The notes below the pieces were generated by a model. It did not search any database. It saw only the letters and a program-made list of their open reading frames with translations, and had not been told where the DNA came from. Positions 3,851 through 26,144 of a stretch of 64,000 nucleotides of DNA are shown here, one piece after another. Source of the DNA: Nocardioides marmotae (GTDB lineage: Bacteria > Actinomycetota > Actinomycetes > Propionibacteriales > Nocardioidaceae). The translations under genes were made by a program, and so were the position numbers. The stretch's first letter is position 1; every line of letters begins with the position of its first letter. Location: the NCBI RefSeq assembly GCF_013177455.1, contig NZ_CP053660.1, positions 2,728,001-2,792,000 of the forward strand, written 5' to 3'.

Positions 3851-3868
3851 TCACCGAATTTGGGCATG
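3851..3868 (+). promoter_or_regulatory. 18-bp dyad motif, copy B, with -10 box
   Basis: TCACCGAATTTGGGCATG is followed after exactly 20 nt by TAGCGT (3889-3894), which fits the actinobacterial TANNNT -10 pattern. The pssD-like gene starts at 3932 behind a GGAGG, giving a leader of roughly 30 nt. The position suggests an activator site touching the -35 region. Copy F at 57 kb has exactly the same 20-nt spacing. Confidence 0.7.
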
Positions 3869-3931
3869 CCCTGGCAGTGGCCCGCTCCTAGCGTTTCCGG
3901 GGTCGGACCGCCGCGGTCCGCAGGAGGCGTC

Positions 3932-4381
3932 ATGAAGGTGCTGCTCGTGAGCTCGTCCGGAGGCCATCTGGCCCAGCTGATGTGCCTGCGCCCGTGGTGG
4001 GGCGAGCACGAACGGCACTGGGTCACCTTCGACACCCCCGACGCGGTGAGCAAGCTCGCCGGCGAGGAGGTGACCTGGGCGCACCACCCCACCACCCGCA
4101 ACGTCGGCAACCTGCTGCGCAACACCGCGCTGGCCCGCCGGGTGCTCGCCGAGGTCCGGCCCGACGTCGTCGTGAGCACCGGCGCCGCGGTGGCCGTGCC
4201 GTTCTTCTGGATGCACCGGCTCTACGGCGTCGCCAGCGTCTACCTCGAGGTCTTCGACCGGATCGAGACGCCGACGCTCACCGGCCGGCTGTGCCGCCCG
4301 GTGACCGACCTGTTCCTCGTCCAGTGGCCCGAGCAGCAGCAGATGTACCGCTCCAGCGTCCTCCTCGGGAGCGTGTGGTGA
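3932..4381 (+). CDS. PssD/Alg14-family glycosyltransferase subunit
   Basis: A 149-residue protein starting MKVLLVSSSGGHLAQL, the hallmark N-terminus of the PssD/Cps14F/Alg14 family. These proteins anchor and position the catalytic partner of a bipartite glycosyltransferase at the cytoplasmic membrane. The conserved DVVVSTGAAVAVPF segment is present near residue 80. The ATG at 3932 follows GGAGG with a 6-nt gap. The stop overlaps the GTG of the next gene (GTGA), which encodes the Alg13/PssE-like half, so the two are translationally coupled. The pair probably adds one of the first sugars to the lipid-linked repeat unit; which sugar cannot be told from sequence. Confidence 0.88.
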   Translation: MKVLLVSSSGGHLAQLMCLRPWWGEHERHWVTFDTPDAVSKLAGEEVTWAHHPTTRNVGNLLRNTALARRVLAEVRPDVVVSTGAAVAVPFFWMHRLYGVASVYLEVFDRIETPTLTGRLCRPVTDLFLVQWPEQQQMYRSSVLLGSVW

Positions 4382-4917
4382 CCGCCCCCACGCCGCTGGT
4401 CGCCGTCCTGCTCGGCACCGACCACCACCCCTTCGACCGGCTCGTCGACTGGTCCCGCGAGGTACGCCGCGCGACGGGCGCCGACGTCTTCGTCCAGCAC
4501 GGCGCGACGACGCTGCCCCCGGACCTCACCGGCGCCGCCGTCCTCGGCCTCGCCGAGCTCTCCTCGCTGCTGGACCGGGCGGCGGTCGTCGTCACGCACG
4601 GCGGTCCGGGCCTGATCATGGAGGCGCGCGCGGCCGGCCACCTGCCCGTGGTCGTGCCGCGCGACCCCCGCCTCGGCGAGCACGTCGACGACCACCAGCA
4701 GCGCTTCGTGGCGAGGATCGCCGGCGCCGGCTTCGTCGCGGCCGCCCAGCACCTGCCCGACTTCCGTCGAGCCGTCTCGATCGCCCTCGTCGGCGGCCGG
4801 GGCGCACCCGCCGGACCGGTCCCGCCCGGCGGCACTCCGCCGGGCGACGGTCCGGTGGCCGACCTCGCCCCGGCCCGCTTCGGCCGGCTCGTCGACGAGC
4901 TCCTCCACCGGACCTGA
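4378..4917 (+). CDS. PssE/Alg13-family glycosyltransferase subunit
   Basis: 179 residues resembling the C-terminal nucleotide-sugar-binding half of GT28 enzymes (PssE, Cps14G, Alg13). The diagnostic VVTHGGPGLIMEA segment is near residue 76, followed by PVVVPRDPRLGEHVDDHQ, which matches the GT28 donor-binding loop. The GTG at 4378 overlaps the pssD-like stop by 4 nt. The last ~40 residues are Gly/Pro/Ala-rich and probably a flexible tail. It is expected to be catalytic only with its upstream partner, using a UDP-sugar at the inner membrane face. Confidence 0.87.
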   Translation: MTAPTPLVAVLLGTDHHPFDRLVDWSREVRRATGADVFVQHGATTLPPDLTGAAVLGLAELSSLLDRAAVVVTHGGPGLIMEARAAGHLPVVVPRDPRLGEHVDDHQQRFVARIAGAGFVAAAQHLPDFRRAVSIALVGGRGAPAGPVPPGGTPPGDGPVADLAPARFGRLVDELLHRT

Positions 4918-4927
4918 GGCGCCGCCC

Positions 4928-6484
4928 GTGACTGTCACCGTGCCCTCCGGGCTCCCCGCGCTCCCCGCGCTCCCCGCCTCCCCCGTGGCTCCCGCCCTCC
5001 CGGCGGCTCCCGCGGCTCCCGCGGCCCGCGGGCCCGACGAGCAGCCGCCCGGCGCCCCGGAGCCGGCTCCGGCCCCGGCTCCCCGCCGCTCGAGTCGCAG
5101 CCCCATCTCGGCGATCCTCGCCCACGACGTCACCGGCGGCGGCCGGGGGCGCTGGCGCCCGCCGTTGCGGCTGGCCGCCGGGGACACGCTGGCCGCGGGC
5201 ATGGGCGCTGCCGTGGCAGCGCGGGACACCCCGACGCCGGTGGTCTTCGTGCTGCTCGTCGTCACCTGGCTGCTGCTGCTCTCGGCCGACCACTGCTACG
5301 ACCCGCACATCGCCTCCCGGCTGGACCAGGTCCGCCGGGTCGGCCGCTGCGGCGTGGTGCTGGTCGCCGCGGCCGCGACCGGGGCCGTCCTCCTCGAGCC
5401 GACGATCCGACCGGGCCGGCTGCTCGCCCTGGCCGTCATCACGACGACCGTCAGCGCCGCCCAGCGGTTGGTCGGGGACCGTTGGACCGGCGTCGCCCGG
5501 GCGCGGGTCCCGGTGGTCGTCGCCGGCCACCGCCGCGACGTCGCTCGGGTGCTGGGCGAGCTCGAGCGCAGCCGCGGCCACCGGTACCGCGTCGCCGGCG
5601 TCTGCGTCCCGACCCGCTCGGGCCGATCCCTCGGCGTCCCGGAGACGTGCGGCTTCCACCGGCTGACGACCGCGGTGGTGCAGCACGGGGCCCGCGCGGT
5701 CATCGTCGTCCCCTGCCGCCACCTCGACCCGATGACGCTGCGCCGGCTCAGCTGGCAGCTGGAGGCCTCCGGCACCTCGTTGATGGTCGCCTCCGGGCTC
5801 TTCGACGTGGCCGCCACCCGCGCCCGGATCGGGTACGCCGGCGACCTGCCGATGCTGCACGTGCGCCACGCCGAGCTCACCGGGGCGCGGCGACTGCTCG
5901 AGGCCGCGGCCGAGCGCGCCGCGGCCGCCCTCGCGCTGGTCCTGCTCGCCCCGCTGCTGGCCGTGCTGGCCCTCGCGGTGCGCCGCGACACCCCCGGCCC
6001 GGCGCTGTTCCGCCAGACCCGGGTGGGGCGCAACGGCCGCCCGTTCTCGATGCTCAAGCTGCGCAGCATGGTCGCCGACGCCGAGGAGCGCCGCGGGGGC
6101 GTCGAGGCGCTCAACGAGACCGACGGCGTGCTCTTCAAGGTCCGCTCGGACCCGCGGGTGACCCGGGTCGGCGCCGTGCTGCGCCGCTACTCCCTCGACG
6201 AGCTCCCGCAGCTGGTCAACGTCGTCCGCGGCGAGATGTCGCTCGTCGGACCGCGGCCGCCGCTGCCCGAGGAGGTCGAGCGGTACGACCCCGACACGCG
6301 CCGCCGGCTCGCCGTCCGCCCCGGCATCACCGGCCTGTGGCAGGTCTCGGGCCGCTCGGACCTCTCCTGGGAGGAGACCGTCCGCCTCGACCTGCGCTAC
6401 GTCGACAACTGGTCCCTCGGGCTGGACCTGCGGATCCTGCTGCGCACCGTCCGCGCGGTGCTGCGCCACGACGGCGCCTACTGA
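4928..6484 (+). CDS. Polyprenyl-phosphate sugar-1-phosphate transferase
   Basis: A 518-residue WbaP/exopolysaccharide polyprenyl glycosylphosphotransferase type enzyme. It transfers a sugar-1-phosphate from a nucleotide sugar to undecaprenyl phosphate, the committed step of repeat-unit synthesis. The N-terminus (about 1-60) is Ala/Pro-rich, followed by membrane segments and a CoA-binding-like middle domain. The catalytic core begins near residue 318 and contains FSMLKLRSM, the Asp-Glu pair of SLDELPQLVNV, GEMSLVGPRPPLPEEV and RPGITGLWQVSGR, all family signatures. The GTG start lies 10 nt after the pssE-like stop, so it is probably the third gene of the operon starting at 3932. It likely initiates the polysaccharide made by this locus. 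Confidence 0.92.
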   Translation: MTVTVPSGLPALPALPASPVAPALPAAPAAPAARGPDEQPPGAPEPAPAPAPRRSSRSPISAILAHDVTGGGRGRWRPPLRLAAGDTLAAGMGAAVAARDTPTPVVFVLLVVTWLLLLSADHCYDPHIASRLDQVRRVGRCGVVLVAAAATGAVLLEPTIRPGRLLALAVITTTVSAAQRLVGDRWTGVARARVPVVVAGHRRDVARVLGELERSRGHRYRVAGVCVPTRSGRSLGVPETCGFHRLTTAVVQHGARAVIVVPCRHLDPMTLRRLSWQLEASGTSLMVASGLFDVAATRARIGYAGDLPMLHVRHAELTGARRLLEAAAERAAAALALVLLAPLLAVLALAVRRDTPGPALFRQTRVGRNGRPFSMLKLRSMVADAEERRGGVEALNETDGVLFKVRSDPRVTRVGAVLRRYSLDELPQLVNVVRGEMSLVGPRPPLPEEVERYDPDTRRRLAVRPGITGLWQVSGRSDLSWEETVRLDLRYVDNWSLGLDLRILLRTVRAVLRHDGAY

Positions 6485-6556: not shown

Positions 6557-6574
6557 TACCCCGAATGGGGCATG
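6557..6574 (+). promoter_or_regulatory. 18-bp dyad motif, copy C, with -10 box
   Basis: TACCCCGAATGGGGCATG is followed after 29 nt by TACGGT (6604-6609), a TANNNT -10 candidate. The spacing is about one helical turn longer than for copies B and F. It lies between the sugar transferase stop (6484) and the exported GH26-like gene, so that gene appears to have its own promoter. Confidence 0.7.
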
Positions 6575-6630
6575 ACCTAGTGCCCGGGCCCTCCTCGCCA
6601 CCCTACGGTGACGCGTCCGCCGAGCCCGGT

Positions 6631-8865: not shown

Positions 8866-9788
8866 CGGCCCGGCCTGCCGACGTGGACGTTGTCGAGCAC
8901 GCCGTTGAACTGGTCGGTGGCCGAGGCCGTGATGACGCCCTCGGGATCGACCTTCGCCCCGACCGAGAGGGGGACGGCCGGGTCGAAGGCAAGGCGGCCG
9001 ATGTCCCCGGTGGCGCTCTGCGTCCACGTCCGCGACCAGGTTCCGTCCGGGCGGGCCCGGGCCAGCGAGACCGTGACCGTGCGGCCGCGCCGGGTGCAGG
9101 CCGCACGGTGCCACCGGCCCGGCTGGATCGTCTTCGCGGCCGCCACCACCACCTCGCCGCGGTCGCCGGCGATCCGGCAGGAGAGGACGCGGTGGTCGAC
9201 CTGGAGCTTGTACTGCACCGGGTCGCGGTAGAGGCCGCGCTGGAGGACGTTGTCACCGTCGTCGGTCGGCACCCCGTCGGAGGCGGGATCGAGGCTGAGG
9301 TCGGCGCCGAAGGTGAACCGGGCGATGCCGGGGCTCAGCTGGTCCTCCGTGCCGGCCGGCCGCACCACCACCGCGGCCGCGGCGACCGCCTCCTCGTCGA
9401 GGTACGGCAGGCGGGCGCCGGTGCCCCCGACCTCCGCGCTCGTGCTCTCGACGCCGGCGGCCCGGACCAGGCGCCCGCCGTTCTGGGTGGCCATCGAGAT
9501 CCACACGGGGTAGCTGCCGCGGTTGGCGATCGAGCCGATCACCGAGCCGGGCGGTGCAGCGCCCTCCTCGAAGTCGACGAGCAGGAACGTGCCCGGGTCG
9601 GCGTCCGCCTGCGCGGCCGGCGCGTCGCCGGCGGTCCGCCCGCCCTCCCCCGTCTCCCCGTCGGCACCCCGGCCGAGCGCCGGGATCTCGCAGGCCGTCA
9701 GCGCGGCGAGGGCGAGCACCCCGGTCAGCACGCCGAGGCCGATCGGTCTGCGGAGGCCGGTGGTGGTGGAGGTCGGCCGGAGGGTCAT
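8862..9788 (-). CDS. LamG-like surface lipoprotein
   Basis: 308 residues. Basic residues and a hydrophobic stretch end in LTAC, a lipobox, so the mature protein should be anchored by the cysteine near residue 33. The body has features of a concanavalin/LamG jelly roll: DFEEG near the start, a central WHRAACTRRGRTVTVSLA strand pattern, and a closing NGVLDNVHVG, which matches the usual last strand of this fold. Such domains bind carbohydrate or act as structural modules. ATG 9788 follows AAGGAG and overlaps the preceding stop (ATGA). Its place between a secreted beta-propeller and a LuxR regulator suggests a surface complex linked to the polysaccharide. Confidence 0.75.
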   Translation of the reverse strand: MTLRPTSTTTGLRRPIGLGVLTGVLALAALTACEIPALGRGADGETGEGGRTAGDAPAAQADADPGTFLLVDFEEGAAPPGSVIGSIANRGSYPVWISMATQNGGRLVRAAGVESTSAEVGGTGARLPYLDEEAVAAAAVVVRPAGTEDQLSPGIARFTFGADLSLDPASDGVPTDDGDNVLQRGLYRDPVQYKLQVDHRVLSCRIAGDRGEVVVAAAKTIQPGRWHRAACTRRGRTVTVSLARARPDGTWSRTWTQSATGDIGRLAFDPAVPLSVGAKVDPEGVITASATDQFNGVLDNVHVGRPGR

Positions 9789-11836
9789 CGCGGGCTCCTT
9801 CCCGGGTCCGCACGCGAATCCGGAGCAGTGGTCGGCTCCTCCGGCGCGGTCGCGCCGTCGGGCCCCTGGAAGAGGAACAGGGCGCGTCCGGCCCAGGTCG
9901 CCGGTCCGGCGACCGACCCGGGGACGCGTCGTGCGGTGCCGCCGACGGGCTTGGCCGCCCCGCCCTGGGTGCGCCAGGTCAGGCGGCGCAGCGCCCCGTC
10001 GGGGCCGCCGATGTAGAGGTGGGTGCGGGTGAGGGCCAGCCCGCGGACCCGACCGGGCCGGAAACCGGGGACACGGCCCGAGGCGACGTGGCGCTCGGCG
10101 CCGACGACACCGCTCGCGGGTGAGAAGTAGCGGTAGACGAGGGCGTCGGACCCGGCGCGGGTGTAGTAGATGCGCCCGTCCTGGTAGGCCATGCCGGTGG
10201 CGGCCCGGGCATCCGCGTGCCACGCGGTGAGCGGCCGGATCCGGTCCTGGGCGGCGACGGCCTCGGCGGGGCCGAGGGTGGTGCCGTCGAAGGTGCGCCG
10301 GGAGAAGGAGCCGTCGGCGTGCGCGAGGTAGAGCCAGCCGTCGACCATGAAGGCGCCGCGGACCCGGCGCCAGTCCGGCACCTCCCCGGGCGGGCCGTCG
10401 GTCGCCACCTCGGACGGGGCGCCGGCCGACGTCGCGGACAGCCCCCGGCGCACCAACACGTCGCGGCCGGCCGGCGCGGCGACGTACACCTCGGCCGGGA
10501 GGGCGGCGGTGCGGGAGGGCAGCTCGGCGGGGCCGACCGCCGGCAGGAAGGCCACGCGGTGCCGTTGGAGCCCGCCGATCCGGGTGGTGTCGGAGACGAC
10601 CCACAGCCCCCGGTCGGTGGCGAGGAAGTCGAAGACGCCGACGCCGCGGTCGCGGCCGGGGTCCCACGACAGCGGCAGCCCGTTGAGCGGGTCGAGGGCG
10701 GCGATGCCCTGGCGGGCGACCGCCCCGGGGCCGGGGCCGTTGCGACCGCCCGGGTTGTTCCACCAGCGCTGGTGGCCCCCGACGTAGACCGCGCTGCGCG
10801 TGACCTCCACGGCGTACGACGTGTCGCCGCCGGTCCGGTCGACCCAGGTCGGCTGCACCCGGTCGCCCCGGGTGTGCGTCTCGAACCGGCTGACCGAGTC
10901 GCACGGGCCGTTCCCGCCGCCGTACCCGCCGGTCGTCGTCACGACGAAGAACCGGCCGTCCGGTGAGACGTCGACGTCGCGCATCGAGGAGTCGTAGGCC
11001 CGCGAGCACGGAGGCTCGAAGAACCGGGTGCGGAAGCCGGCCGGCCGCGCGGTGCGGCCCAGCCGCAGCACGAGCAGCTGGTGGGAGCGCTTGCCCTGGA
11101 GGCGGGCGAAGTTCCCGACCGCCACGAGGCGGGAGCCGTCCGGGGTGAGGTCGAGCTTGAGCACCTGGGTGACGCCACGCCGGTGGTGGCCGCGCACGCC
11201 CAGGGACATGTACGGCGTCGCGCGGCCGGTCTGCGGGCCGAGCGTCGCGAGCGCGACCCGGTGCCGGCCACCGATGTGGGTGAACGCCCCGCCCACCCAG
11301 AGCCGGCCGTCGCGCAGCGCCAGGTCGCGCACCTTGCCCGCGACCCGGCCCGGGCGGAAGGACCCGACGAGCGACCCGTCGGCCAGGTCCACCCGCGCGA
11401 GCCGGCCCCGGGGCCTGCCGTCGACGGCGGTGAAGGTCCCGCCGACGTACATCGACCGGCCGTCGGCGGCCGGGGCCAGCGCGCGCACCTCCCCCACCAC
11501 CCGCGCGTCGAACTCCCGCACCACCTGGCCGGTGCTGGCGCTGAAGGCGACCAGCCCGCGCCGGACCAGGACCGGCCGCGTGCCCACGACCGTCTCGGCG
11601 TCCCGCACCCGGGTGAACGACCCGCCGAGGACGACGGTGTCCCCGACCTGCTCGACGACGTAGACCCGTCCGTCGAGGACCTCCGGCGTGCCCGCCGCCG
11701 GCTGCTCGGCGACCGCGAGGTCACCCAGGTCGGCCGGGCCACCCGGGACGGCCCGGCCCGCCCCGGCGGCCGGTGACACCGAGGAGACGAGGAGCAGGCC
11801 GGTGAGCGCGGCGGCCCCGAGGGCGACCACGTTCAC
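9785..11836 (-). CDS. Exported beta-propeller-like protein
   Basis: 683 residues from a GTG at 11836, followed by a signal peptide (hydrophobic residues 3-24, cleavage near AGA). The body contains repeated blades of the type VYVVEQVGDTVVLGGSFT, MYVGGTFTAVDG, LWVGGAFTHIGG, VYVGGHQRWW and LYIGGPDGALRRLTW, typical of delta-60/PQQ-like propellers. No catalytic motif is apparent. The last ~25 residues are Pro/Thr/Ala/Asp-rich. It is first in a three-gene coupled operon with the lipoprotein and LuxR genes and has motif copy G upstream. A scaffold or polymer-binding role at the cell surface is plausible. The start is moderately certain because no strong ribosome site precedes it. Confidence 0.75.
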   Translation of the reverse strand: MNVVALGAAALTGLLLVSSVSPAAGAGRAVPGGPADLGDLAVAEQPAAGTPEVLDGRVYVVEQVGDTVVLGGSFTRVRDAETVVGTRPVLVRRGLVAFSASTGQVVREFDARVVGEVRALAPAADGRSMYVGGTFTAVDGRPRGRLARVDLADGSLVGSFRPGRVAGKVRDLALRDGRLWVGGAFTHIGGRHRVALATLGPQTGRATPYMSLGVRGHHRRGVTQVLKLDLTPDGSRLVAVGNFARLQGKRSHQLLVLRLGRTARPAGFRTRFFEPPCSRAYDSSMRDVDVSPDGRFFVVTTTGGYGGGNGPCDSVSRFETHTRGDRVQPTWVDRTGGDTSYAVEVTRSAVYVGGHQRWWNNPGGRNGPGPGAVARQGIAALDPLNGLPLSWDPGRDRGVGVFDFLATDRGLWVVSDTTRIGGLQRHRVAFLPAVGPAELPSRTAALPAEVYVAAPAGRDVLVRRGLSATSAGAPSEVATDGPPGEVPDWRRVRGAFMVDGWLYLAHADGSFSRRTFDGTTLGPAEAVAAQDRIRPLTAWHADARAATGMAYQDGRIYYTRAGSDALVYRYFSPASGVVGAERHVASGRVPGFRPGRVRGLALTRTHLYIGGPDGALRRLTWRTQGGAAKPVGGTARRVPGSVAGPATWAGRALFLFQGPDGATAPEEPTTAPDSRADPGRSPR

Positions 11837-12028: not shown

Positions 12029-14128
12029 ATGCCCGCGCCGCCCGCCGCGCCGCCCGCGCCGCCCGCGCCGTCCCGATCGGAGCCGCGGGCCGGTCGTGCC
12101 GGGCTGGGCGGACCTGCGTGGCCGCTGGTCCTGCTGCTGGCCGGCTACCCGGCGTGGTGGCTGCTCGGGGTGGACTCCTTCCTCCCCCTCGCGCTCGCGG
12201 TGCCGATGCTGCTCCAGCTGCGCCGGCGCCCCACGCTCCTGCTGCCGGCCGGGCTCGGCCTGTGGCTGCTGTTCTGCTGCTGGGTCGTCGTCGGCGTCGT
12301 GCTGCTGTGGACCGACGCCCCCGGCGCGATCCCCGGCGGCGGCGGGTCCTCACGCCTGCTGGTCTTCGGCTTCCGCCTGGCCTGGTACGTCGCCTGCGGG
12401 GTCGTCCTGGTGTGGGTGGCCAACCTCCGCCGCGAGGACCTCCCCGACGAGCGCGCCCGCGGACTGCTGGCGTGGCTGTTCGTGCTGTGCACCGCCGGCG
12501 GCATCGTCGGCCTGCTCTGGCCCGAGATCGAGGTCACCTCGCTGACCGAGTCCCTGCTGCCGGCCGGGCTGCGCAACAACGCCTTCGTCGCCTCGCTGGT
12601 GCACCCCCAGGTCGCCAACGTCCAAGACGTCCTGGGCCGACCCGAACCGCGACCCAAGGCGCCGTTCGCGTTCACCAACACCTGGGGCAGCTGCCTGTCG
12701 CTGGCCCTCGTCTTCCTCCTCGCCCTCGACCGGCGCCGGCGGCGGTGGCTGCGCCTGGCCGTGCCGCTGGTGCTCGTGGTGGCCGCCTGGCCGGTGGCCT
12801 ACTCCCTCAATCGGGGGCTGTGGGGCAGCCTGGCGATCGGTCTGGTCGTCCTGGTCGTGCTCCGCGCCCGGCGCGGCGACCCGAAGGCCGCCACCGCCCT
12901 GGTCCTGGCGACGGTCGTCGGCATCGTCGCGCTCGTGGCGAGCCCCCTGGCCGACGTCTACGGCGACCGCTTCGAGAACCAGCACAGCAACAACCGCCGC
13001 AGCCAGCTGCTGATCACCACCACCACCTCGGTCAGCCAGGCCTCCCCCATCGCCGGCCTCGGCAGCACCCGCGACGTGCAGGGCAGCTTCGCCTCCATCA
13101 GCGGCGCCGCGACCCCCGAGTGCCCGGCCTGCGGCGTGCCCCCGCTGGGGACGCAGGGCCAGCTGTGGCTGGTGCTGTTCTCCCAGGGCTGGATCGGGCT
13201 GGGACTGTTCCTCGCCTTCCTCGTCGCCGCGCTCGCGCGCGCCCGCCGCTGCCGGACGACGACCGAGGTCACCTGCGCCTTCGTCGTGCTGTTCCTCCTC
13301 ATCCAGCTGCCGGTCTACGACACCCTCGGCATGCCGCTGTTCCTGGTGATGATCGCCATCGGGCTGCTGACCCGCGAGCAGGCCGCCGCCGGCGACCAGC
13401 GCCACCGTCGGATCGCCACGCCCGACCTGGGCCGGGCCCTGCGCCGCGGCGCGCCCGTCGTCGCGGCGACCACCGTGGCCGGTGCGCTGATCGGGACCGT
13501 CCTCGCCGCGGCTCCCGCCTCCGCCATGCACCGCGCCGAGACGCGGGTCCTGCTCACCCCGGCGCCGGTCTACCTCTCCACGGGCAACCCGGACACCCCG
13601 CTGGACGCCGACGGCGAGGCCGACCCGCCAGGCGAGGTCACCGTCGACACCGAGGCGGCACTGCTGCTCTCCGAGGAGTCGCTGCGCCGGGCCGCCGCGG
13701 CGACGGGCCAGGAGGTCGACACGCTGCGGGAGGCGGTCGCGGTGACCGCTCCTCCCCGCTCCCACGTGCTGCGGCTGACCGTGGACCTGCCCGACGCCGG
13801 CGACGCCGAGCTCGCGGCCGCGGCCGTCGCCGCGTCGTACCTCGACTCGCGCGCCGCGTTCCTCACCCAGCGCCGCGACGACCTCGTCCGCAGCCTCACC
13901 CGCCAGCTGGCCCAGCTCAACCCCGTGCTGGTCATGCTCCGGAGCCAGCGCGCGCAGATCCTGCGCGAGATCGACTACCTCGAGACCTCCCGTCCGAGCG
14001 TCGGCGAGGTCATCGGCGCCGGCGCCGCGACCCGCCTGCCCAGCAAGGCCGAGGTCCCCATCGCCTCCGGCGCCGGCCTCGGCCTGCTCGCCGGCGTCCT
14101 CCTGGCCCGCCGCCGGCGACGGGCGTGA
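12029..14128 (+). CDS. O-antigen polymerase/ligase fused to a Wzz-like chain-length domain
   Basis: 699 residues. Residues ~1-460 form a multi-pass membrane protein of the O-antigen ligase/polymerase (Wzy/WaaL) type, with about ten hydrophobic helices, a periplasmic loop with NTWGSC, a VAYSLNRGLW helix and PIAGLGSTRDVQG. Near residue 470 a further helix opens a Wzz-like extracellular part: TRVLLTPAP, then VDTEAALLLSEE, an alpha-helical region about 590-650, and a closing transmembrane helix (IASGAGLGLLAGVLLA). Polymerase and length regulator are usually separate proteins. The ATG at 12029 is preferred; a GTG at 12014 in frame is an alternative, and the leader would be very short. It should polymerise the lipid-linked repeat units after flipping. 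Confidence 0.8.
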   Translation: MPAPPAAPPAPPAPSRSEPRAGRAGLGGPAWPLVLLLAGYPAWWLLGVDSFLPLALAVPMLLQLRRRPTLLLPAGLGLWLLFCCWVVVGVVLLWTDAPGAIPGGGGSSRLLVFGFRLAWYVACGVVLVWVANLRREDLPDERARGLLAWLFVLCTAGGIVGLLWPEIEVTSLTESLLPAGLRNNAFVASLVHPQVANVQDVLGRPEPRPKAPFAFTNTWGSCLSLALVFLLALDRRRRRWLRLAVPLVLVVAAWPVAYSLNRGLWGSLAIGLVVLVVLRARRGDPKAATALVLATVVGIVALVASPLADVYGDRFENQHSNNRRSQLLITTTTSVSQASPIAGLGSTRDVQGSFASISGAATPECPACGVPPLGTQGQLWLVLFSQGWIGLGLFLAFLVAALARARRCRTTTEVTCAFVVLFLLIQLPVYDTLGMPLFLVMIAIGLLTREQAAAGDQRHRRIATPDLGRALRRGAPVVAATTVAGALIGTVLAAAPASAMHRAETRVLLTPAPVYLSTGNPDTPLDADGEADPPGEVTVDTEAALLLSEESLRRAAAATGQEVDTLREAVAVTAPPRSHVLRLTVDLPDAGDAELAAAAVAASYLDSRAAFLTQRRDDLVRSLTRQLAQLNPVLVMLRSQRAQILREIDYLETSRPSVGEVIGAGAATRLPSKAEVPIASGAGLGLLAGVLLARRRRRA

Positions 14129-14181: not shown

Positions 14182-15129
14182 GTGACCGACCCCCCCAGCA
14201 ACACCGACCCCTCGCGCCGCACCGCCCGGCTGCCGGCCGTCGACGTCGTGATCGCCACCCACGCTCGGCCCGAGCTGGTGCGCACCGCGGTCGACGCGGT
14301 GATGGCGCAGGACTACCCCGGGGTGCTGCGCTGCCTGGTCGTCCACGACCGCTGCGAGCCCGACGACTCACTCGTCCGCGAGGGCCGGCGGCGCTCGGTC
14401 GAGGTGCTCGTCAACACCTGCACGCCCGGCCTCGCCGGCTCCCGCAACACCGGCATCCTCGCCGGCGCGGGCGACCTCGTCGCCTTCTGCGACGACGACG
14501 ACGTGTGGTTCGAGGACAAGGTGAGCCGTCAGGTCGAGGAGATGGAGCGCACCGGCGCCCTGACCTCGGTGACCGGGATCGTCGTGGACTACCAGGACCG
14601 GCGTACGACGCGGATCCCCCGGCCCGAGCAGATGACGGTGCGCGAGCTGGCGCGCCACCGGGTCATGGCCGCGCACCCCTCGACGGTCATGGTCCGCCGC
14701 GCCGCGCTCGAGGGGCCGATCGGGCTCGTCGACGAGGACCTGCCGGGCAGCTACGCCGAGGACTACGACTGGATCCTCCGCGCCGCGGGCGTCGGCGAGG
14801 TCGCGGTGGTGGAGATGGGGCTCGTGCTGGTGCGCTGGGGCTCCTCGCAGTTCGCCCGCCAGTGGTCGGTCATCGTCGCCGCCCTCGACCACCTCCTCGC
14901 CAAGCACACCGCCTTCGCCGAGGACCCCCGGGCGCTCGGCCGCATCTACGGGCAGCGCGCCTTCGCCCTCGCCGCTTCCGGCGACGCCCGCGCGCTCGCC
15001 GCAGCCGCCCGCGCCGTCCGCACCTGGCCCTGGGAGCGCCGCTCCTACCTCGCCGGCGCCGTCGCGCTCCACCTGCTCTCCGCCGACCGGGTGCTCGATC
15101 TCGCGAACCGCCGCGGCCGCGGCATCTGA
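14182..15129 (+). CDS. GT2-family glycosyltransferase
   Basis: 315 residues with a GT-A fold: VDVVIATHARPELV near residue 20, then GLAGSRNTGI and VAFCDDDDVW, where the DDD motif binds metal and nucleotide sugar. EDYDWILRA near residue 193 supplies the catalytic-base region. The C-terminal ~100 residues are helical with no clear membrane anchor. GTG 14182 follows GAGGAG. It lies 53 nt behind the polymerase-Wzz fusion, probably in the same transcript. It should add a sugar to the growing repeat unit in the cytoplasm; donor and linkage are unknown. Confidence 0.88.
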   Translation: MTDPPSNTDPSRRTARLPAVDVVIATHARPELVRTAVDAVMAQDYPGVLRCLVVHDRCEPDDSLVREGRRRSVEVLVNTCTPGLAGSRNTGILAGAGDLVAFCDDDDVWFEDKVSRQVEEMERTGALTSVTGIVVDYQDRRTTRIPRPEQMTVRELARHRVMAAHPSTVMVRRAALEGPIGLVDEDLPGSYAEDYDWILRAAGVGEVAVVEMGLVLVRWGSSQFARQWSVIVAALDHLLAKHTAFAEDPRALGRIYGQRAFALAASGDARALAAAARAVRTWPWERRSYLAGAVALHLLSADRVLDLANRRGRGI

Positions 15130-15178: not shown

Positions 15179-15196
15179 TCCCCCATCTGGGGGATG
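15179..15196 (+). promoter_or_regulatory. 18-bp dyad motif, copy D, with overlapping hairpin
   Basis: TCCCCCATCTGGGGGATG contains a perfect TCCCCC/GGGGGA dyad. A TACGGG box (15236-15241) follows at 39 nt, ahead of the second GH26-like gene (15294). A competing hairpin, GGGGGAC (15167-15173) with GTCCCCC (15178-15184), overlaps the left arm and could act as terminator of the upstream glycosyltransferase gene. Confidence 0.65.
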
Positions 15197-15293
15197 CCGG
15201 GCGGACAGCGGAGGAAGCGCGGCTCGTCCGGGGGGTACGGGCCAGGGATGCCCAAGCCCCCGTCCGGGGCGCTTCCCTACGAACCGAGGCACC

Positions 15294-16388: not shown

Positions 16389-17580
16389 CCCCGAGTCCCG
16401 CCAGCTCCTCGAGCGCGGCGAGCACGCACGACCCGCGATCGCGGATGTGCTCGCCGCGCTCGGTGGCGGCCAGGAGCAGGTAGCGGTTGGTCACCGCAAC
16501 CAGGTACGCCCCGGCGAGCACCCGCTCGGTGACCGACCCGGCGGGCAGGGCGCCGACGACGACCTCCGGCGAGGCGCCGTGGCGGACCGTGGCCACGTTG
16601 ACCGCGTGGTGCATCCGGTCCAGGCCCCGCGGCACGCCGGTCTCGAAGCGCTCCCAGTCCCACAGGTGGACCCGGCCGCGTGCGGCGGGTGCCATGTTCC
16701 ACGGCGTCCAGTCGCCGTGCCAGGCGCCGACCGGCCACGCCCGCCCGTCGGCGAGGACCTCGAGCCGGTCCATCGCCACACGCAGCCGCCGCCCCTGGTC
16801 GAGGTCGGCCATCTGCAGGGACAACCGCCGCTGCTCGGACCACCAGGCCAGGTCCTCGAGCGGCGTGCCCGGCTCGGCGAAGGCCCGCGCGAGATCGTCC
16901 ATCGCCGCCAGCGGCGGCGCGGTCCGCGCGCGGCGCGGCCGGGGCAGGCTCGCGCGCAGGCTGCCGAGCGGCTCGAGGACGAGCACCACCCGGTCCCGCC
17001 ACCACGACTCGTGCAGCACCCGCGGCGCGACCACGTCGCGCAGGGGGGCCGCGGCGACCCGGCGGAGGTTCGCGCCCTCGGCCGTCACGTCCGCCCGCGC
17101 GACCTCCGAGTCGCCGATCTTGACGAAGGCGAGCGTGCGGCCTCGCTCGTCGAAGACCTGGAGCACCGGCTTCCGGTTGACCCGCTCGGAGCCGATCCCG
17201 ACGGAGAAGGTCACCGGCTGCCCCATCAGCTCGCCGAGGTGGCGGGCGAGGGAGTCGACCGGCTCCCCGCTCAGGCCCACCCGGGTGCCGAGCAGCGCCC
17301 CCCGGGTGGCGCCGACCACCGCGGCGCCCGCCACCCGGCGTACGACCTGGGCCGGGGAGGAGTCCGAGCTGAACCGGCACAGCGTCCGCCCGGCCGCCAG
17401 CCGCGAGGAGACCGGCACGACCTGCCGGGGCCGCCGGGCGTTCGGGACGAGCGCCCACCGGCCGTCGGGCCGCGCGGTCACGGCGGCGCCGGGCCACAGC
17501 GAGCCGAACGTCGCGACCAGCGGGTCCTCACCGCCGTGCGCACCGCCTTGTGCACCGCCGTGTGCACCGCCGTCGGTCAC
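16333..17580 (-). CDS. APH-like phosphotransferase
   Basis: 415 residues. The C-terminal half has the aminoglycoside/choline phosphotransferase signature: WHGDWTPWNMA near residue 290, matching the catalytic loop HGDxxxxN, followed by LWDWERFETG, where the Asp is the metal ligand. The N-terminal ~25 residues are Gly/His-rich, then an NTP-binding-like region with VFDERGRTLAFVKIG. Similar kinases occur in surface-polysaccharide loci and may phosphorylate a sugar or sugar-nucleotide precursor; substrate unknown. GTG 17580 overlaps the preceding stop by 4 nt. It is the last gene of the minus-strand operon starting at 23186, and its end overlaps the GH26-like gene tail-to-tail. Confidence 0.75.
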   Translation of the reverse strand: MTDGGAHGGAQGGAHGGEDPLVATFGSLWPGAAVTARPDGRWALVPNARRPRQVVPVSSRLAAGRTLCRFSSDSSPAQVVRRVAGAAVVGATRGALLGTRVGLSGEPVDSLARHLGELMGQPVTFSVGIGSERVNRKPVLQVFDERGRTLAFVKIGDSEVARADVTAEGANLRRVAAAPLRDVVAPRVLHESWWRDRVVLVLEPLGSLRASLPRPRRARTAPPLAAMDDLARAFAEPGTPLEDLAWWSEQRRLSLQMADLDQGRRLRVAMDRLEVLADGRAWPVGAWHGDWTPWNMAPAARGRVHLWDWERFETGVPRGLDRMHHAVNVATVRHGASPEVVVGALPAGSVTERVLAGAYLVAVTNRYLLLAATERGEHIRDRGSCVLAALEELAGLGVSDRSAGSPAGCPGRRSA

Positions 17581-18920
17581 CGGTTCCTCACGCAGGCGAA
17601 GAGGTGGCGGCCGTAGTTGTCCTGGTAGGGCGGCACGGCGTCCTGGTCGGCGCCGAGGTCGATGATCTGGTCGAACGTGGTGTGCTCGGCCAGGAACGAC
17701 CGCACGCGCTCGGTGTCCCACGCCGGCAGGGAGTCGCGGAACCACTGCTCGTGGGCCTGTCCGGTGTCCAGGAACAGCACCCGCCCGGTCGCCCGGTCCA
17801 GCAGCCGCACCAGCTCCTCGGGCGGGCACGCGCCGCGGCCGAGGACGAAGTGGTGCAGCAGGCTGAAGCAGGACACGACGTCCCACTGCCGCCCGCCGGC
17901 GAGGAAGTCGACGGCGTCGCCGACGTTCATCCGGGCCGGGTCGGTGCCGTGCAGCGCAGCGGCGACCCGCGGGGCGGCCGGGTCGCGCTCGATGCCCTCC
18001 GCGTCGTACCCGAGCTGGCCGACGGCGTCGACGAACCAGCCGTAGCACGCGGCGACGTCGAGGTACGTCGGCGGGCGGGCGGCGGTGTCGGCCTCGGCCG
18101 CCACGTCCTCCAGCAGCGGCGCCATCATCGCCAGCCGGTCGGTGCAGCGGCGCACCACGCGGTAGCCGGCGCGCAGCTCGGGGGCGTCGACCGGCTGGTA
18201 GAGCTCGCGCTCGCCGCCGATCCACGACATCTCGTCCAGCACGTCCTGCAGCGGGGTGGTGACCGCGAACCGGCGCACCTTGGCGCGGATGCCGACCGCG
18301 CCGCGCACCACCTCGATCGCCAGCCGGTGGTGGCCGTCGACGACCTGGTAGCAGTCGGAGTCGCGGACCGGCGCGAGCAGGACCGGGGCGCCCGGCTCGC
18401 TCTGGTTCGGCCGGGCCGGGCCGTCCGGGGCCGGCCGCGCCGACCCGCCCGCGTCCGGCGCCGCGGCGAGGGCGAGGAAGTCGCGGGCGAGGCGGAGGAT
18501 GCCGGCGTCGTCGGTGACCCCGAAGTACTGCCCCGAGAGGCGGATGCAGGCCCGGGCGAGGTCGGCGTAGGAGGAGGCCAGCACCTCCGCGTCGGTCAGC
18601 GGACCGGCCAGGCCGGCGCGCAGGAGCGCGACGTGCGGGCCGTCGGCGACCGGACGCGAGCCCCACAGCAGGTCGCCGGTGGCTTCGGCGAGGGCCGCGG
18701 CCGGAAGCCCGTTCTGCCCGCCGAGCAGGATCTTGGACAACGGGACCTTCGCGGCGCCCTGGCGCCAGACGGCGACCGAGAGCGCCCGGCGGACCGCGGG
18801 CGGCATCGGGGCCTGGCCGACGACCTTGGTGCCCGCGGCGGTGCGGTCGGCCAGGCGGCGGCCGAGCCGGTGGCGCAGGTCGCGGGCGCGGGAGCGGTGG
18901 GCGGAGACGAGGGTGCTCAC
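17577..18920 (-). CDS. Methyltransferase with ParB-like DGHHR segment
   Basis: 447 residues. The middle part has DCYQVVDGHHRLAIEVV near residue 186, the DGxHR motif of ParB/Srx-like folds. The C-terminal ~180 residues look like a class I SAM-dependent methyltransferase: YLDVAACYGWFVDA near 280, NVGDAVDFL, and WDVVSCFSLLHHFV typical of motif post-I/IV. The N-terminal 100 residues are basic and helical. GTG 18920 overlaps the sulfotransferase stop (GTGA). In this operon it probably O-methylates a sugar of the repeat unit. The ParB-like part may bind a nucleotide or act as scaffold, which is inference. Confidence 0.72.
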   Translation of the reverse strand: MSTLVSAHRSRARDLRHRLGRRLADRTAAGTKVVGQAPMPPAVRRALSVAVWRQGAAKVPLSKILLGGQNGLPAAALAEATGDLLWGSRPVADGPHVALLRAGLAGPLTDAEVLASSYADLARACIRLSGQYFGVTDDAGILRLARDFLALAAAPDAGGSARPAPDGPARPNQSEPGAPVLLAPVRDSDCYQVVDGHHRLAIEVVRGAVGIRAKVRRFAVTTPLQDVLDEMSWIGGERELYQPVDAPELRAGYRVVRRCTDRLAMMAPLLEDVAAEADTAARPPTYLDVAACYGWFVDAVGQLGYDAEGIERDPAAPRVAAALHGTDPARMNVGDAVDFLAGGRQWDVVSCFSLLHHFVLGRGACPPEELVRLLDRATGRVLFLDTGQAHEQWFRDSLPAWDTERVRSFLAEHTTFDQIIDLGADQDAVPPYQDNYGRHLFACVRNR

Positions 18921-19816
18921 CGGGCCACCGCCTCGGCGCGCCACGACGGCGCCTGGTCGAGGTGGCGGGCCAGCTGCGCGTCGGAGTCGGCGAAGTGGGT
19001 CAGCAGGTCAGCGTGCTCGTCGGGCGGCAGGGGGTCGGCCGGCCGGGCGTTCCAGCGCTCGACCGCGGCCGGCACCCAGGTCGAGAGGCCCAGTCGCCGC
19101 TGGAGCGCGGCGAACTGCGGGACGGGGTCGGCGAAGAACCGGTCGGCGTCGACCACGTGGACCCGATCGGGCCCGAGCGCGGAGACGAACCGCTCGACCT
19201 GCTCGCCGTAGCGGCCGCGGCCCAGGTAGGCGTGGTGGCGGTGCTCGAAGCTGGTGCTGCGGGGCTCGGTCGCCAGCCGCTCCTGCTCGCCGGCCAGGCG
19301 GCGCTCCTCGGCGCGCAGCGCCGCGTCGAAGGGCAGCGACTCGAACCCGCGGGCCAGCTCGTGGCGGTGGGCCGAGCGGGCCCGCTCGACGGGGTCGCGG
19401 ACGAGCACCACGACGTGGGCGCCGGGCAGGTCCCGGGCGATCCGGTCGGCCGCGAGCGGGTGGAAGAGGTAGTAGCCGCCGCACTCGAAGGTCCGCAGCC
19501 GACGCCCGGGCCGGGCCAGGCGCGCGAGCGGGCCGAGCGGGAAGTGGGCGCGGTACCACCGCGGGCCGCGGTGGTACTCGTCGTCGAAGTAGCTCGTGCC
19601 CTTCGTCGCCGTGGGCCGCACCAGGTCCGGGTGCTCGGAGAGCAGGCGGAACATCGTGGTCGTGCCGGCGCGCTGGGCGCCGACCACGATGATGTCGGGG
19701 ACCATCCGCCAGGGGGCGGTCACCCGGCCCCAGGTCAGGGCCGCGGCCCGCAGACCGTCGGTGGCGCGGCTGGGCAGGCGGTCGGCCAGCTGTCGGGTCA
19801 GGTCTCGAGCAAGCAC
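18917..19816 (-). CDS. PAPS-dependent sulfotransferase
   Basis: 299 residues. DIIVVGAQRAGTTTMFRLLS near residue 41 is the 5'-phosphosulfate-binding loop, and VVVLVRDPVERARSAHRHEL near 135 is the 3'-phosphate-binding motif of the sulfotransferase family. YFDDEYHRGPRWYRAHFP is also typical of bacterial carbohydrate sulfotransferases. It transfers sulfate from PAPS to an acceptor, here presumably a sugar of the exported polymer. GTG 19816 lies inside the end of the flippase gene (19-nt overlap). No PAPS-synthesis gene is in the window. Confidence 0.88.
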   Translation of the reverse strand: MLARDLTRQLADRLPSRATDGLRAAALTWGRVTAPWRMVPDIIVVGAQRAGTTTMFRLLSEHPDLVRPTATKGTSYFDDEYHRGPRWYRAHFPLGPLARLARPGRRLRTFECGGYYLFHPLAADRIARDLPGAHVVVLVRDPVERARSAHRHELARGFESLPFDAALRAEERRLAGEQERLATEPRSTSFEHRHHAYLGRGRYGEQVERFVSALGPDRVHVVDADRFFADPVPQFAALQRRLGLSTWVPAAVERWNARPADPLPPDEHADLLTHFADSDAQLARHLDQAPSWRAEAVAR

Positions 19817-21486
19817 GGGTCGTCACTCTCCTTGGAGGGGGGCTGGTGCGGGCGGGTCGCCGCGGGGTCGTGCGGACGGGTCGGGTGGGTGGTGGCGGTG
19901 CGCGTGCGGCGCAGGGCCGCGACGGCGATGTCGAGGGCGAGCCGCTCGCCCAGGGCGGCCAGCGCGGCGACGTACGCCACGGCGCCGAGGGCGGCGGTGA
20001 GGAGCACGCCGAGCGGGCTGGAGCCCAGGAGCAGGGCGACCAGCAGGCCGGGGACGCCGAAGCAGGCGACGGCGACGCCGGCGGCGAGCGCGGGCACGCC
20101 CCAGGCGGAGCGGAGCCGCCCGAGGTCGACCGCGCGGCGGACCTGCCAGATGCCGAGCCCGCTGCGCACGGCCAGCGCGAGGGCCCAGGCGACCGCGGCG
20201 CCGACGATGCCCATCCGGGGGACCAGGACGAGGCAGGCGACGACGTCGACGGCGAGGGCGAGCAGGCCGTTGACCATGCTCAGCCCGCTGCGACCGGCCA
20301 TGAGCAGCAGCGTGTCGACGGGGCCGGAGCCGACGGCGAGGAGCATCGTGGCGGCCATGACCGCGACCGTGGCGAGAGCGCCGGTGGTGACGTAGTCGGC
20401 GCCGAAGACCGAGAGGTACGTCGGGGCGCCGGTGCCGACGACGAGGTAGAGCGGCCACACCAGCAGCACCGCCCAGCCGGTCGTGATCGCGAAGGTGCGC
20501 CGCAGCGCCGCGCCGTCCTCGCCGATCAGCAGCACCGTGAACCGCGCCTGGAGGACCTGGTGGACCGCCTGGTTGGCGAGCTGGCCGACCGCGACGAACC
20601 GGGTGGCGGCGGTGTAGAGCGCGGCGTGCCCGGGGGTGAGCAGCGCGGCGACCAGGATGATGTCGGCCTTCTGCACCACGACCTGCGCCAGGCCCGCGAC
20701 GCCGCGCGGCCAGGTGAAGGACCAGAACTCCGCGGCGAGCGAGGCGGCCCCCGCGGACGTCTCGGCCCGCGCGCCGGCGGGGCCGGCGGGCCGGGACCGC
20801 AGGCAGGAGCGGAGGGCGGCGGCGGCGAGGAGGAGCGAGAGGAGGTACGCCGCGGACCAGGCCAGGCCGAGCACGGCCGGCCCTCCCTCGGCGGCCACCG
20901 CCGCGGCGACCGCGACGACCTGGACACCCGCCCGCAGCACCCGGTCGACCAGGGCGGTCTGGTGCATCTGGCCGACCGCGCGGGTCGCGGCGAGCATGAG
21001 GTCGGCCAGCACGCAGCACGGCAGCGCCGGCGCGACGGCCCGGATGACCCGGGTGCCGTCCTCGCCCAGGCCGAGGACCGAGGAGAGCGGCTCGGCGAGC
21101 AGCAGCAGGGCCGCGGTCACCGCGAGGGCGACCACCACGACCGGCAGGCCGGCGGTCCGCACCGCGCGGCGTACGTCGTCGGTGCGCCCCTCGGCCTCCA
21201 GCCGCAGCAGGAACCGGGCCAGGCCCGAGTCGGTGCCCAGCGCCGAGACCACGGCGAGGGTGGTGAACAGGGCGGTGGCGGCGAAGAAGATGCCGGCCTC
21301 GCCCGCGGCGAGGCCGCGGGCGACGAGCACGGTGGAGGCGAGCCCGCAGGCCGCGGCGAACGCCGACCCGGCGAGGCCGACCGCACCGCCGCGCGCGACC
21401 TGCCCGAGGTGGGCGGCGGTCGCACCTCCACTGCCGGCCTGGTCCGCCTGGTCCGCCTGGTCCGCCGCCCCGGGGGCCCCGGTCAC
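19798..21486 (-). CDS. Polysaccharide flippase (MATE/MVF superfamily, Wzx-like)
   Basis: 562 residues with about 12-14 predicted membrane helices, starting GQVARGGAVGLAGSAFAAACGLASTVLVARGL, the common opening of Wzx/RfbX-like flippases. The C-terminal ~40 residues are polar and cytoplasmic. GTG 21486 overlaps the upstream stop by 4 nt. It should move the lipid-linked repeat unit across the membrane, upstream of the polymerase encoded at 12029. It sits between the Wzz-like and sulfotransferase genes in a tightly coupled operon. Confidence 0.87.
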   Translation of the reverse strand: MTGAPGAADQADQADQAGSGGATAAHLGQVARGGAVGLAGSAFAAACGLASTVLVARGLAAGEAGIFFAATALFTTLAVVSALGTDSGLARFLLRLEAEGRTDDVRRAVRTAGLPVVVVALAVTAALLLLAEPLSSVLGLGEDGTRVIRAVAPALPCCVLADLMLAATRAVGQMHQTALVDRVLRAGVQVVAVAAAVAAEGGPAVLGLAWSAAYLLSLLLAAAALRSCLRSRPAGPAGARAETSAGAASLAAEFWSFTWPRGVAGLAQVVVQKADIILVAALLTPGHAALYTAATRFVAVGQLANQAVHQVLQARFTVLLIGEDGAALRRTFAITTGWAVLLVWPLYLVVGTGAPTYLSVFGADYVTTGALATVAVMAATMLLAVGSGPVDTLLLMAGRSGLSMVNGLLALAVDVVACLVLVPRMGIVGAAVAWALALAVRSGLGIWQVRRAVDLGRLRSAWGVPALAAGVAVACFGVPGLLVALLLGSSPLGVLLTAALGAVAYVAALAALGERLALDIAVAALRRTRTATTHPTRPHDPAATRPHQPPSKESDDPCLLET

Positions 21487-23186
21487 CCGGCACCGCCGGG
21501 TGGGTGGGAGGAGCCCCCGCTCACCGAGAGGGCGGGCTCGGGAACCGTGGTCCGTCGGCCGGAGACCCACCGGGAGAGGCGCACCCGGAGCCGGGGCCGT
21601 GACCGGGTCGCGGCGCCGGGTCGCGCGGGGCCGGCGGCGGGGGCGACCTGCGATGCCGGCGCTCCCCCGTTGACGACGAGGAGGCGCACGGTGGACGCAC
21701 CGACCCGGCGCAGGAGCTCGACCGCCGCGGCCGCCGCCGCGGGGCCCTCGGCCGCGGCCGGAACCTCCAGCAGCACGGTGTCGGCCAGCGCGGCGAGCGC
21801 CTGGGTCCGCAGGCCCGTGGCGGCGCCGGTGCAGATCAGGACGACGTCGGCGGTCTCCCGCAGCTCGGCCAGGAGGTCCGCGGCGGCAGGCCCCGCGAGG
21901 GTGTCGTCGAGGTCGGCGGGGCGCCCTCCTGCGCCGAGCATCCGCAGGTAGGGCCCCTCCGCCATCAGCACCTGCTCGAGCGGGACCTCACCGCGCAGGA
22001 CGTCGGCCAGGCCGCGGCCGGGAGGACCGAGGGGGCGCGAGACGTCCACGACGACCGTCCGCAGGCGCGCCGCGGCAAGCGAGCGGGCAAGGCCGACGGC
22101 GACCACCGAGCCCGGGGCCTCCGTCGGGTGGCAGACCAGGGCTGTCAGCGGGCGGTCGCGCTCGGCGGCGAGGAGGGCCGCACGCACGGTCGCGAGGGCG
22201 GTGGCCGGTGCCGACGCGGGGAGCGTGCCCAGCAGGGGCGCGGGCCAGGCGTGCGCCCGGTCGGGCATCCGGTCGGGGGCAGGGGTGTCCTGCTCGCCGT
22301 CGCCGCCCTGGCGGCCGAGGCCCGAGCCAACCCAGCCGACCGCGGCACCGGCCAGCAGGCCGAGGAGCGCGGTCGCGAGCGGACCGCCGGGCAGCCCGGA
22401 CCGGCCGGCGACCGCCGGGGTGACGACCTGGCCGGGGTCCGGGGTGGCAGCCCGCGTGGCGCCCAGCTGGGCCTGCAGCTCGTCGGCCTGGACGCTGAGG
22501 TTCACGATCTGCTGGGTGAGCACGGCGGATCGCGACGACCGGGGCACCGCGGTGGCCAGCTGCCGGGACAGCTCGTCCTGCTCGGCCTCCCGCGCCCGGA
22601 TCTGTTCCTCCAGCTCGGCCGCGCGGTCGCCGCGCGCCGACTCGGTGCGAGAGCGCCGGAAGGCGAGGTAGGTCTCGGCGAAGGCCTGGGCGCGCAGCGC
22701 CGCCTGTTGTGCCGTCGAGCCCGTCGCCGAGACCTCGAGCAGCTGGGTGTTGGGCGGCACCTTGACCGAGACGGCGGCCAGCAGGTCCTGCTGGTCCTCA
22801 CCCAGGGCCCGGGCGACCGCCTTGCCCATGGTGTCGGAGCGGGCCAGCTGTGCCTCGGTCTCGAGGTTGATCAGCTCGTCGCCGCGGCCCTCGGGGCTGA
22901 ACGGGTTGCCCTCCAGCGGATTGACCAGCACCACGGAGGTGGCCCGGTGGGTCGCCTGCTGCTGCAGGCCCCACCACAGGCCGGCCCCGGCGCCGAGCAG
23001 CGCGCAGACGACGACGAGCAGCGCGGCCAGCCGCCGACGCACGAGGGGCTGCCTGCGCCGGTCGTCGCGGTGCGGCGTACCGGTGAGGTCGGAGGATCCG
23101 CGCGGTGCGGGTCCCTCGGACGCGGCGGCAGAACCGGTCGTGTGGGTGTCGAGCACGAGGAGGCTCCTCTCATCGGGAGTCGTCAT
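21483..23186 (-). CDS. Wzz-like chain-length protein with degenerate BY-kinase domain
   Basis: 567 residues. A helix near 52-74, an extracellular Wzz-type domain with a coiled-coil segment (~170-225), and a second helix near 263-287 match the polysaccharide co-polymerase fold. The cytoplasmic part resembles a BY-kinase/ParA-like domain (TALVCHPTEAPGSVVAVGLA, TVVVDVSRPLG, ADVVLICTGAATG). At the Walker A position the Lys-Ser/Thr of GKS/T is missing, and there is no tyrosine-rich tail, so it is probably catalytically dead. ATG 23186 heads the operon toward 16333. It likely controls chain length by oligomerisation rather than phosphorylation. Confidence 0.8.
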   Translation of the reverse strand: MTTPDERSLLVLDTHTTGSAAASEGPAPRGSSDLTGTPHRDDRRRQPLVRRRLAALLVVVCALLGAGAGLWWGLQQQATHRATSVVLVNPLEGNPFSPEGRGDELINLETEAQLARSDTMGKAVARALGEDQQDLLAAVSVKVPPNTQLLEVSATGSTAQQAALRAQAFAETYLAFRRSRTESARGDRAAELEEQIRAREAEQDELSRQLATAVPRSSRSAVLTQQIVNLSVQADELQAQLGATRAATPDPGQVVTPAVAGRSGLPGGPLATALLGLLAGAAVGWVGSGLGRQGGDGEQDTPAPDRMPDRAHAWPAPLLGTLPASAPATALATVRAALLAAERDRPLTALVCHPTEAPGSVVAVGLARSLAAARLRTVVVDVSRPLGPPGRGLADVLRGEVPLEQVLMAEGPYLRMLGAGGRPADLDDTLAGPAAADLLAELRETADVVLICTGAATGLRTQALAALADTVLLEVPAAAEGPAAAAAAVELLRRVGASTVRLLVVNGGAPASQVAPAAGPARPGAATRSRPRLRVRLSRWVSGRRTTVPEPALSVSGGSSHPPGGAG

Positions 23187-23288: not shown

Positions 23289-23814
23289 GCGAGACGCCCC
23301 GAGCCGAGCATGCTGAAGCCCGTCGGGTCGTGCCCCGACACACGTCCCGCCAGTCGTGGTGGGCCTCGGCAGTCCTGCGCGACGCCCGGGCTCGGCACCC
23401 CCCGCCCCGTCGGCCGCTGTCACCCCCCATGCGGCAGCCGCCCGCGGACCACGGCTGGCGGGCACTCCGCCCGTCCGAGCGACTCGCTCGACGCGCGTCT
23501 GTCAAGAGGCCGATGGCCGTCTTCCCGCTGCAGGAGTCCCGGGCACCTGGACCCTGGGGCCGGTGCCCGGCGCCTCGTACGTTGCCGGGCATGAGTGCTC
23601 GTGCTGACCGCCCCGGCCGGGCCGGGGCCGCCGTCATCCAACCGAGCTGCCCGGGCGCACCGGGGTGAACCGCGGCGAGGGGGGCGCGGCCGAGGGAACG
23701 CCGGCCGTGGCAGCAGGATCTCCAGCAGAAGCGGCGCCGCGCGCCAAGCACGACGCCGCAGCGGGCTCTTTACCACGCGATCTCCACAAACTACCCTTTA
23801 GCAGCGGTGTAACT

Positions 23815-23844
23815 TTCCCCACTTTGCGGTATACCGGTGGGGAA
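23815..23844. promoter_or_regulatory. Nested palindrome before the kinase gene
   Basis: TTCCCCAC (23815-23822) and GTGGGGAA (23837-23844) form a perfect 8-bp inverted repeat. Between them CGGTATACCG (23827-23836) is a perfect 10-bp palindrome containing TATACC, a possible -10 box. It lies 166 bp before the histidine-kinase start and probably is its promoter/operator, although a hairpin in the leader is an alternative. Confidence 0.45.
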
Positions 23845-24009
23845 TCGCCAGCAGGCCGAGCCGGCCGCGCGGACGGTTCGAGGATGAGCACTTCGATCAC
23901 CTCGAGGGACGTGGGCACCTCGTCCCGGCGATCTGCGTCTGGGACTGCTGGCTCGTGGGGCCGGCCGCCAGACGGTGCACACCGATGGAGGCCAGGAGTG
24001 GGTGGGGAG

Positions 24010-25461: not shown

Positions 25462-26144
25462 CGACCGCCGGCCGCCACGAGACCCGGATCGTCCTGGTCG
25501 AGGACCACACGCTCTTCGCCGACTCCCTCGACATGGTCTTCACCGTCGAGGGCTACGACGTACGGCGGATCGCGATCCCCGACGAGGGCGGGTCGATGGC
25601 CTCGATCCTCTCCGCCATCCTCGCCTCGCACCCGCGCATCGTGCTGCTCGACCTCGACCTGGGCCGGCTCGGCGACGCGACCCGGCTCATCGGCCCGATC
25701 GCCCGCGCCGGCGTCAACGTCGTCGTCGTCACCGCCAGCCCCGACCGCGGCCGGTGGGGCGAGTGCCTGCGACTCGGCGCCAGGAAGGTGATCAGCAAGT
25801 CCCGGCCGCTGACCGAGATCCTCTCCACCGTGCGCCGGCTGGTGCAGGGCCTGCCGGTGACCGACGTCGCCGAGCGCGAGGAGCTGCTGCAGCTGTGGCA
25901 CCAGGAGCGCAGCGACAAGCAGGCGGCCCGGGAGCGGCTCGACCGGCTCACCCAGCGCGAGCGCGAGGTGCTCGCCATGCTCGTCAAGGGGCGGGCGGTG
26001 CGCGACATCGCTGCGGACAAGGTCGTCTCCGAGGCGACGGTCCGCACGCAGGTGAAGTCGATCCTGGCCAAGCTGGAGGTCTCCTCGCAGCTGGCCGCCG
26101 TCGGCTTGGCCCACCACGTCGGCTGGGTGCCGCCCCCGCACTGA
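25458..26144 (+). CDS. LuxR-family response regulator
   Basis: 228 residues. The receiver domain is intact: VEDH acidic pocket, VLLDLDLG with the phospho-acceptor Asp, VTAS and VISKS with the conserved lysine. The C-terminal LuxR helix-turn-helix reads LTQREREVLAMLVKGRAVRD through LEVSSQLAAVGLAHH. It is coupled to the histidine kinase by a 4-bp overlap. Its DNA-binding domain resembles that of the LuxR protein at 8137-8865 (both end L-E-V-x-SQLAAV), so they may recognise similar sites. It is the strongest candidate regulator for the 18-bp dyad, by inference. Confidence 0.9.
   Translation: MTTAGRHETRIVLVEDHTLFADSLDMVFTVEGYDVRRIAIPDEGGSMASILSAILASHPRIVLLDLDLGRLGDATRLIGPIARAGVNVVVVTASPDRGRWGECLRLGARKVISKSRPLTEILSTVRRLVQGLPVTDVAEREELLQLWHQERSDKQAARERLDRLTQREREVLAMLVKGRAVRDIAADKVVSEATVRTQVKSILAKLEVSSQLAAVGLAHHVGWVPPPH

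Follow-up and report, generated by a model that had tools for sequence, protein, structure and literature searches.

A Wzy/WaaL-type membrane domain and a PCP (Wzz-like) domain share one reading frame in Nocardioides marmotae and its relatives

Results

In the window, the 64,000-nucleotide stretch of Nocardioides marmotae DNA analysed here, a Wzy/WaaL-type multi-helix domain runs without interruption into a Wzz-like PCP domain within a single open reading frame. We read this protein as a Wzy-type polymerase with its own PCP attached covalently, acting on a Wzx/Wzy-dependent, probably sulfated surface polysaccharide, with a probability of about 0.7; its enzymatic function is what we infer from fold, family and gene context. 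The parts are known, but no earlier description of a Wzy-Wzz fusion, and thus of this arrangement, was found in the open literature searched. The features of the fused gene are as follows.

12029..14128, plus strand: wzy-pcp fusion gene, 699 aa, a single open frame, fused in 36 sampled genomes
12110..13387, plus strand: Wzy/WaaL-type polymerase domain (residues 28-453) with about 12 membrane helices (assigned by WaaL fold, Wzy_C and topology)
13388..13417, plus strand: basic linker of 10 residues (454-463), predicted to be cytoplasmic from model secondary structure and charge count
13418..14125, plus strand: PCP (Wzz-like) domain, residues 464-699, with membrane helix 464-493, outer domain 494-674 and membrane helix 675-698

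The frame is open over 699 codons from 12029 and closes with the stop codon at 14126-14128. An in-frame ATG upstream at 11861 would give a longer reading frame; most relatives carry a methionine near 12029. The nearest named relative found is Nocardioides abyssi (78% identical), compared with which third codon positions diverge most, in the Wzy half and the PCP half alike. A consensus scan for promoters and terminators near the gene returned none. The genome that carries the window is a single contig of 4.39 Mb.

For the full-length protein, an AlphaFold model was obtained with a pLDDT of 75.6 and a pTM of 0.76. The best structural match of residues 28-453 is WaaL (7tpg_B, Z 16.9, rmsd 4.8 over 324 residues), and RodA is also matched by the model of this half (Z about 11). 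A weak Wzy_C match covers residues 248-348 (E 5e-5, 23.5 bits against a Pfam cut-off of 31.7) and recurs in 19 of 22 fused relatives, with E-values up to 0.1. The half shares with the Wzy/WaaL family (Pfam Wzy_C; WaaL 7tpg) the multi-helix WaaL-type fold with large outer loops, as well as arginine and histidine residues that are invariant among the relatives of the fusion. It departs from this family in its weak Wzy_C score and in the PCP domain that follows directly in the same chain. A WaaL-like fold, as modelled here, cannot by itself tell a polymerase from a ligase.

The Pfam search with the fusion protein of the window gave no match to a PCP or Wzz model. Modelled alone, the PCP domain reached a pLDDT of 88.8 and matched Wzc (Z up to 16.1; 7nhs_A with Z 15.3, rmsd 3.2 over 162 residues), KpsE (Z 12) and WzzE (Z 9-11), both membrane helices included; unrelated alpha/beta proteins score Z about 8-9, so that Wzc and KpsE stand clear of this background and WzzE only modestly above it. 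The same three proteins are matched by residues 463-699 of the full-length model. In addition, the solved PCP PslE is matched by a profile of the PCP domain (E 4.6e-5), and one fused relative (L097) has a weak Pfam Wzz match of its own (E 0.0028). The sequence-only reading had placed a Wzz-like region between membrane helices at about residues 460-699 and named absence of such a fold as the finding that would speak against it; the fold is present in the models.

Hydropathy and charge suggest 12 helices followed by a linker on the inside, which has 3 basic residues, then helix 13, an outer domain of 181 residues and helix 14; the predicted inside loops are basic. Since the C-terminus of the polymerase and the N-terminus of the PCP are both predicted inside, the two can be joined seamlessly. 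With the PCP family (Wzc, KpsE, WzzE, PslE) the fused domain has in common the two membrane helices that flank an outer alpha/beta domain, and the helical hairpin; it differs in being joined to a polymerase and in having no kinase domain. Variants occur among the relatives. At L057 3156-5081 (G174) the PCP domain of the fused protein has lost its helical hairpin, which makes it a minimal PCP found in nature. L097 3126-5810, L098 220-2925 and L099 3842-6547 encode longer fused Wzy-PCP proteins (about 900 aa); their extra tail of 118-140 residues resembles by eye a shortened kinase-like domain, so a triple fusion is possible.

The fused gene lies among the following genes.

3860..4917, plus strand: Alg14-like and GT28-C-like glycosyltransferase pair (Pfam PF08660, PF04101)
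4928..6484, plus strand: initiating sugar-phosphate transferase, Bac_transf (Pfam PF02397)
9785..11836, minus strand: secreted protein, weakly matching a beta-propeller (DUF5122); most fused loci have it in divergent orientation to the fusion gene
14182..15129, plus strand: family 2 glycosyltransferase, immediately downstream of the fusion (Pfam PF00535)
17577..18944, minus strand: methyltransferase-like (Pfam PF13489, just under cut-off)
18917..19816, minus strand: sulfotransferase (Pfam PF13469)
19798..21570, minus strand: Wzx-type flippase (Pfam PF01943; start codon not fixed)
21483..23186, minus strand: second PCP, of group PCP-B, with a degenerate BY-kinase-like domain (sequence, profile, PCP tree, motifs)
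23665..26144, plus strand: histidine kinase and LuxR-type response regulator

This content fits a Wzx/Wzy-dependent polysaccharide that is probably sulfated. The fusion is the one gene of the locus that was recognised as Wzy-like. Elsewhere in the genome there are two Wzy_C proteins that score stronger than the fusion, and a third, unfused PCP. This PCP and a separate Wzy_C protein lie about 24 kb apart (G000:C1 3857750-3858151 and 3881499-3881930), possibly as a conventional unfused set.

The second Wzz-like protein noticed from the letters alone at 21483-23186 is real, although it is encoded on the minus strand, and models, profile matches, gene maps and conservation all support a second PCP in the locus beside the polymerase-PCP polypeptide. 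Its C-terminal region resembles Wzc-type kinases. However, the Walker A motif of an active BY-kinase is absent, both here and in its relatives in fused loci, and the other kinase motifs look degenerate; judged by its motifs the protein is a conserved pseudokinase, with the same Walker A loss in the relatives examined. In the PCP tree it groups, with good support, among 66 kinase-tailed PCPs that form one clade, apart from the fused domains and most stand-alone PCPs, and PCP-A and PCP-B are only about 30% identical. PCP-B was found on the same contig as the fusion, at a distance of roughly 0.4-10 kb, in 35 of 35 fused genomes checked (G174 left out). PCPs joined to pseudokinases are already known from examples cited in PMC12004946. 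Like these PCP-2 proteins, the second PCP of the window carries a BY-kinase-like domain without Walker A; unlike those examples, it coexists with a polymerase-fused PCP.

The genus sample comprised 196 genomes, 71 of which had a match. Both domains are spanned in one frame in 28 of them (27 of the kind found in the window, and G133; row count) and in eight more genomes, which belong to three further genera of this family (G199, G215, G222, G246, G256, G257, G280, G286). The fusion is therefore intact in 36 sampled genomes of one family and four genera. Outside the family none was seen in the class and phylum samples, a partial sampling in which very diverged fusions could escape; there the homologous polymerase is a stand-alone protein, and all 10 outgroup polymerases checked end 4-18 residues past the Wzy domain. 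A plasmid search gave one partial match only.

A frameshift or an assembly error that joins two genes has a negligible probability. In its favour one might cite the draft of Nocardioides alcanivorans, which has frame breaks in the fusion gene, but the same unbroken fusion is kept in 36 genomes, which rules this explanation out. In the draft itself (L005 9773-12097) the gene is split over several frames, by sequencing error or real decay. The single frame, the models and profiles, the gene maps and the conservation together support the fusion as an observation, and the earlier reading was right in substance.

In the polymerase tree, the 33 main fused sequences group together with good support and a second clade unites four others (L038, L097, L098, L099/L121), with stand-alone polymerases of the same order adjoining the fused clades. 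Constraining all fused rows to one clade was not rejected (p 0.75 and 0.40), and in spite of the two clades we do not claim two independent fusions. Unfused relatives possess the same two PCPs, PCP-A and PCP-B, which indicates that the two length-control modules are older than the fusion. The gene order in stand-alone loci (L086-L088, L102, L108) is wzy, sulfotransferase, PCP, GT2, and in fused loci wzy-PCP, GT2. Since a sulfotransferase gene lies between wzy and PCP in these outgroups, the fusion could plausibly have come about when the gene or genes in between were lost. The ancestor would then have had separate wzy, PCP-A and PCP-B genes, and the fusion probably arose by loss of what lay between wzy and PCP-A.

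Discussion

How Wzz/PCP proteins control Wzy, and in which ratio the two act, is still debated, and the two-protein Wzz-Wzy complex is hard to keep together for structural work. A natural fusion kept across a family argues that both parts work within reach of each other, and it offers one protein for structural work on Wzy and PCP.

In our preferred reading, the polymerase domain would extend lipid-linked chains outside the membrane while the attached PCP is held permanently at it. The fused subunit may enter a PCP ring in which copies of the unfused paralogue 21483-23186 fill the remaining places; such a ring, with many PCPs and one or a few polymerases, would set the chain length. The WzzE-WzyE complex contains about 8 WzzE for each WzyE, which occupies the lumen that the ring forms in the membrane (PMC10030265). 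The fusion resembles this complex in that the same two activities appear physically associated, but there two proteins meet at about 8:1 (PMC10030265), whereas here one chain forces 1:1 for those subunits. With a ratio of 8:1 and WzyE inside the ring, such a complex would be hard to build from a pure 1:1 fusion, and the constant presence of an unfused PCP-B suggests mixed rings as a way to restore the ratio. The one-molecule Wzy-PCP fits awkwardly with the reported 8:1 ratio and makes that model directly testable. We give mixed rings of fusion and PCP-B about one chance in three. Equally tentative is the fuller proposal of a covalent Wzy-PCP machine in which the mix of fused and unfused PCP in one ring tunes length and which possibly evolved twice in the family. 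If rings are mixed, the ratio of the two proteins would tune polysaccharide length. Since the 8:1 ratio was obtained for a PCP-1 system of a Gram-negative bacterium, rings in actinobacteria may be different; and with an identity of only about 30% between PCP-A and PCP-B, and two-PCP loci that are also unfused, PCP-B may have another job. Instead of mixed rings, there may be a homo-ring with the polymerases outside, or a different oligomer.

The fusion could indeed act by itself at 1:1: fused subunits would form a homo-oligomer, with several polymerases placed around the PCP ring or next to it, and PCP-B would act at another step, for example export or regulation. A polymerase necessarily comes with every fused subunit, PCP-B bears a kinase-like domain and groups in a clade of its own, and two PCPs coexist in unfused loci too. 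However, a single Wzy occupies the lumen of the published ring (PMC10030265), so that eight 12-helix domains would have to sit outside, and none of the 35 fused genomes checked lacks PCP-B; we hold this alternative to be possible, though rather unlikely.

We doubt that the N-terminal half is an enzyme of the O-antigen-ligase type, which would transfer completed chains to the envelope and use the PCP domain for docking. WaaL is the closest solved fold, Wzy_C spans polymerases and ligases, and the two stronger Wzy_C proteins elsewhere in the genome also point this way; yet the locus would then lack a recognised Wzy-like gene, and PCPs are known partners of polymerases. It is very unlikely that the fusion is translated whole and then processed into separate Wzy and PCP proteins. 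Separate proteins suffice in unfused relatives, and the linker is short and variable, but this shortness and its predicted cytoplasmic position also speak against cleavage.

Within the locus of the fused gene, the interval 16487-17569, between the second of two apparently secreted proteins and the methyltransferase-like gene, gave no Pfam match in the frames tested, and a first gene call at 16487-17665 was set aside. Another first call, 15194-16483, proved to be the wrong frame of 15195-16388. The latter and 6493-8100, both on the plus strand, encode paralogues of each other, both apparently secreted; one of them weakly matches GH5 cellulase, and they are possible chain-cutting enzymes.
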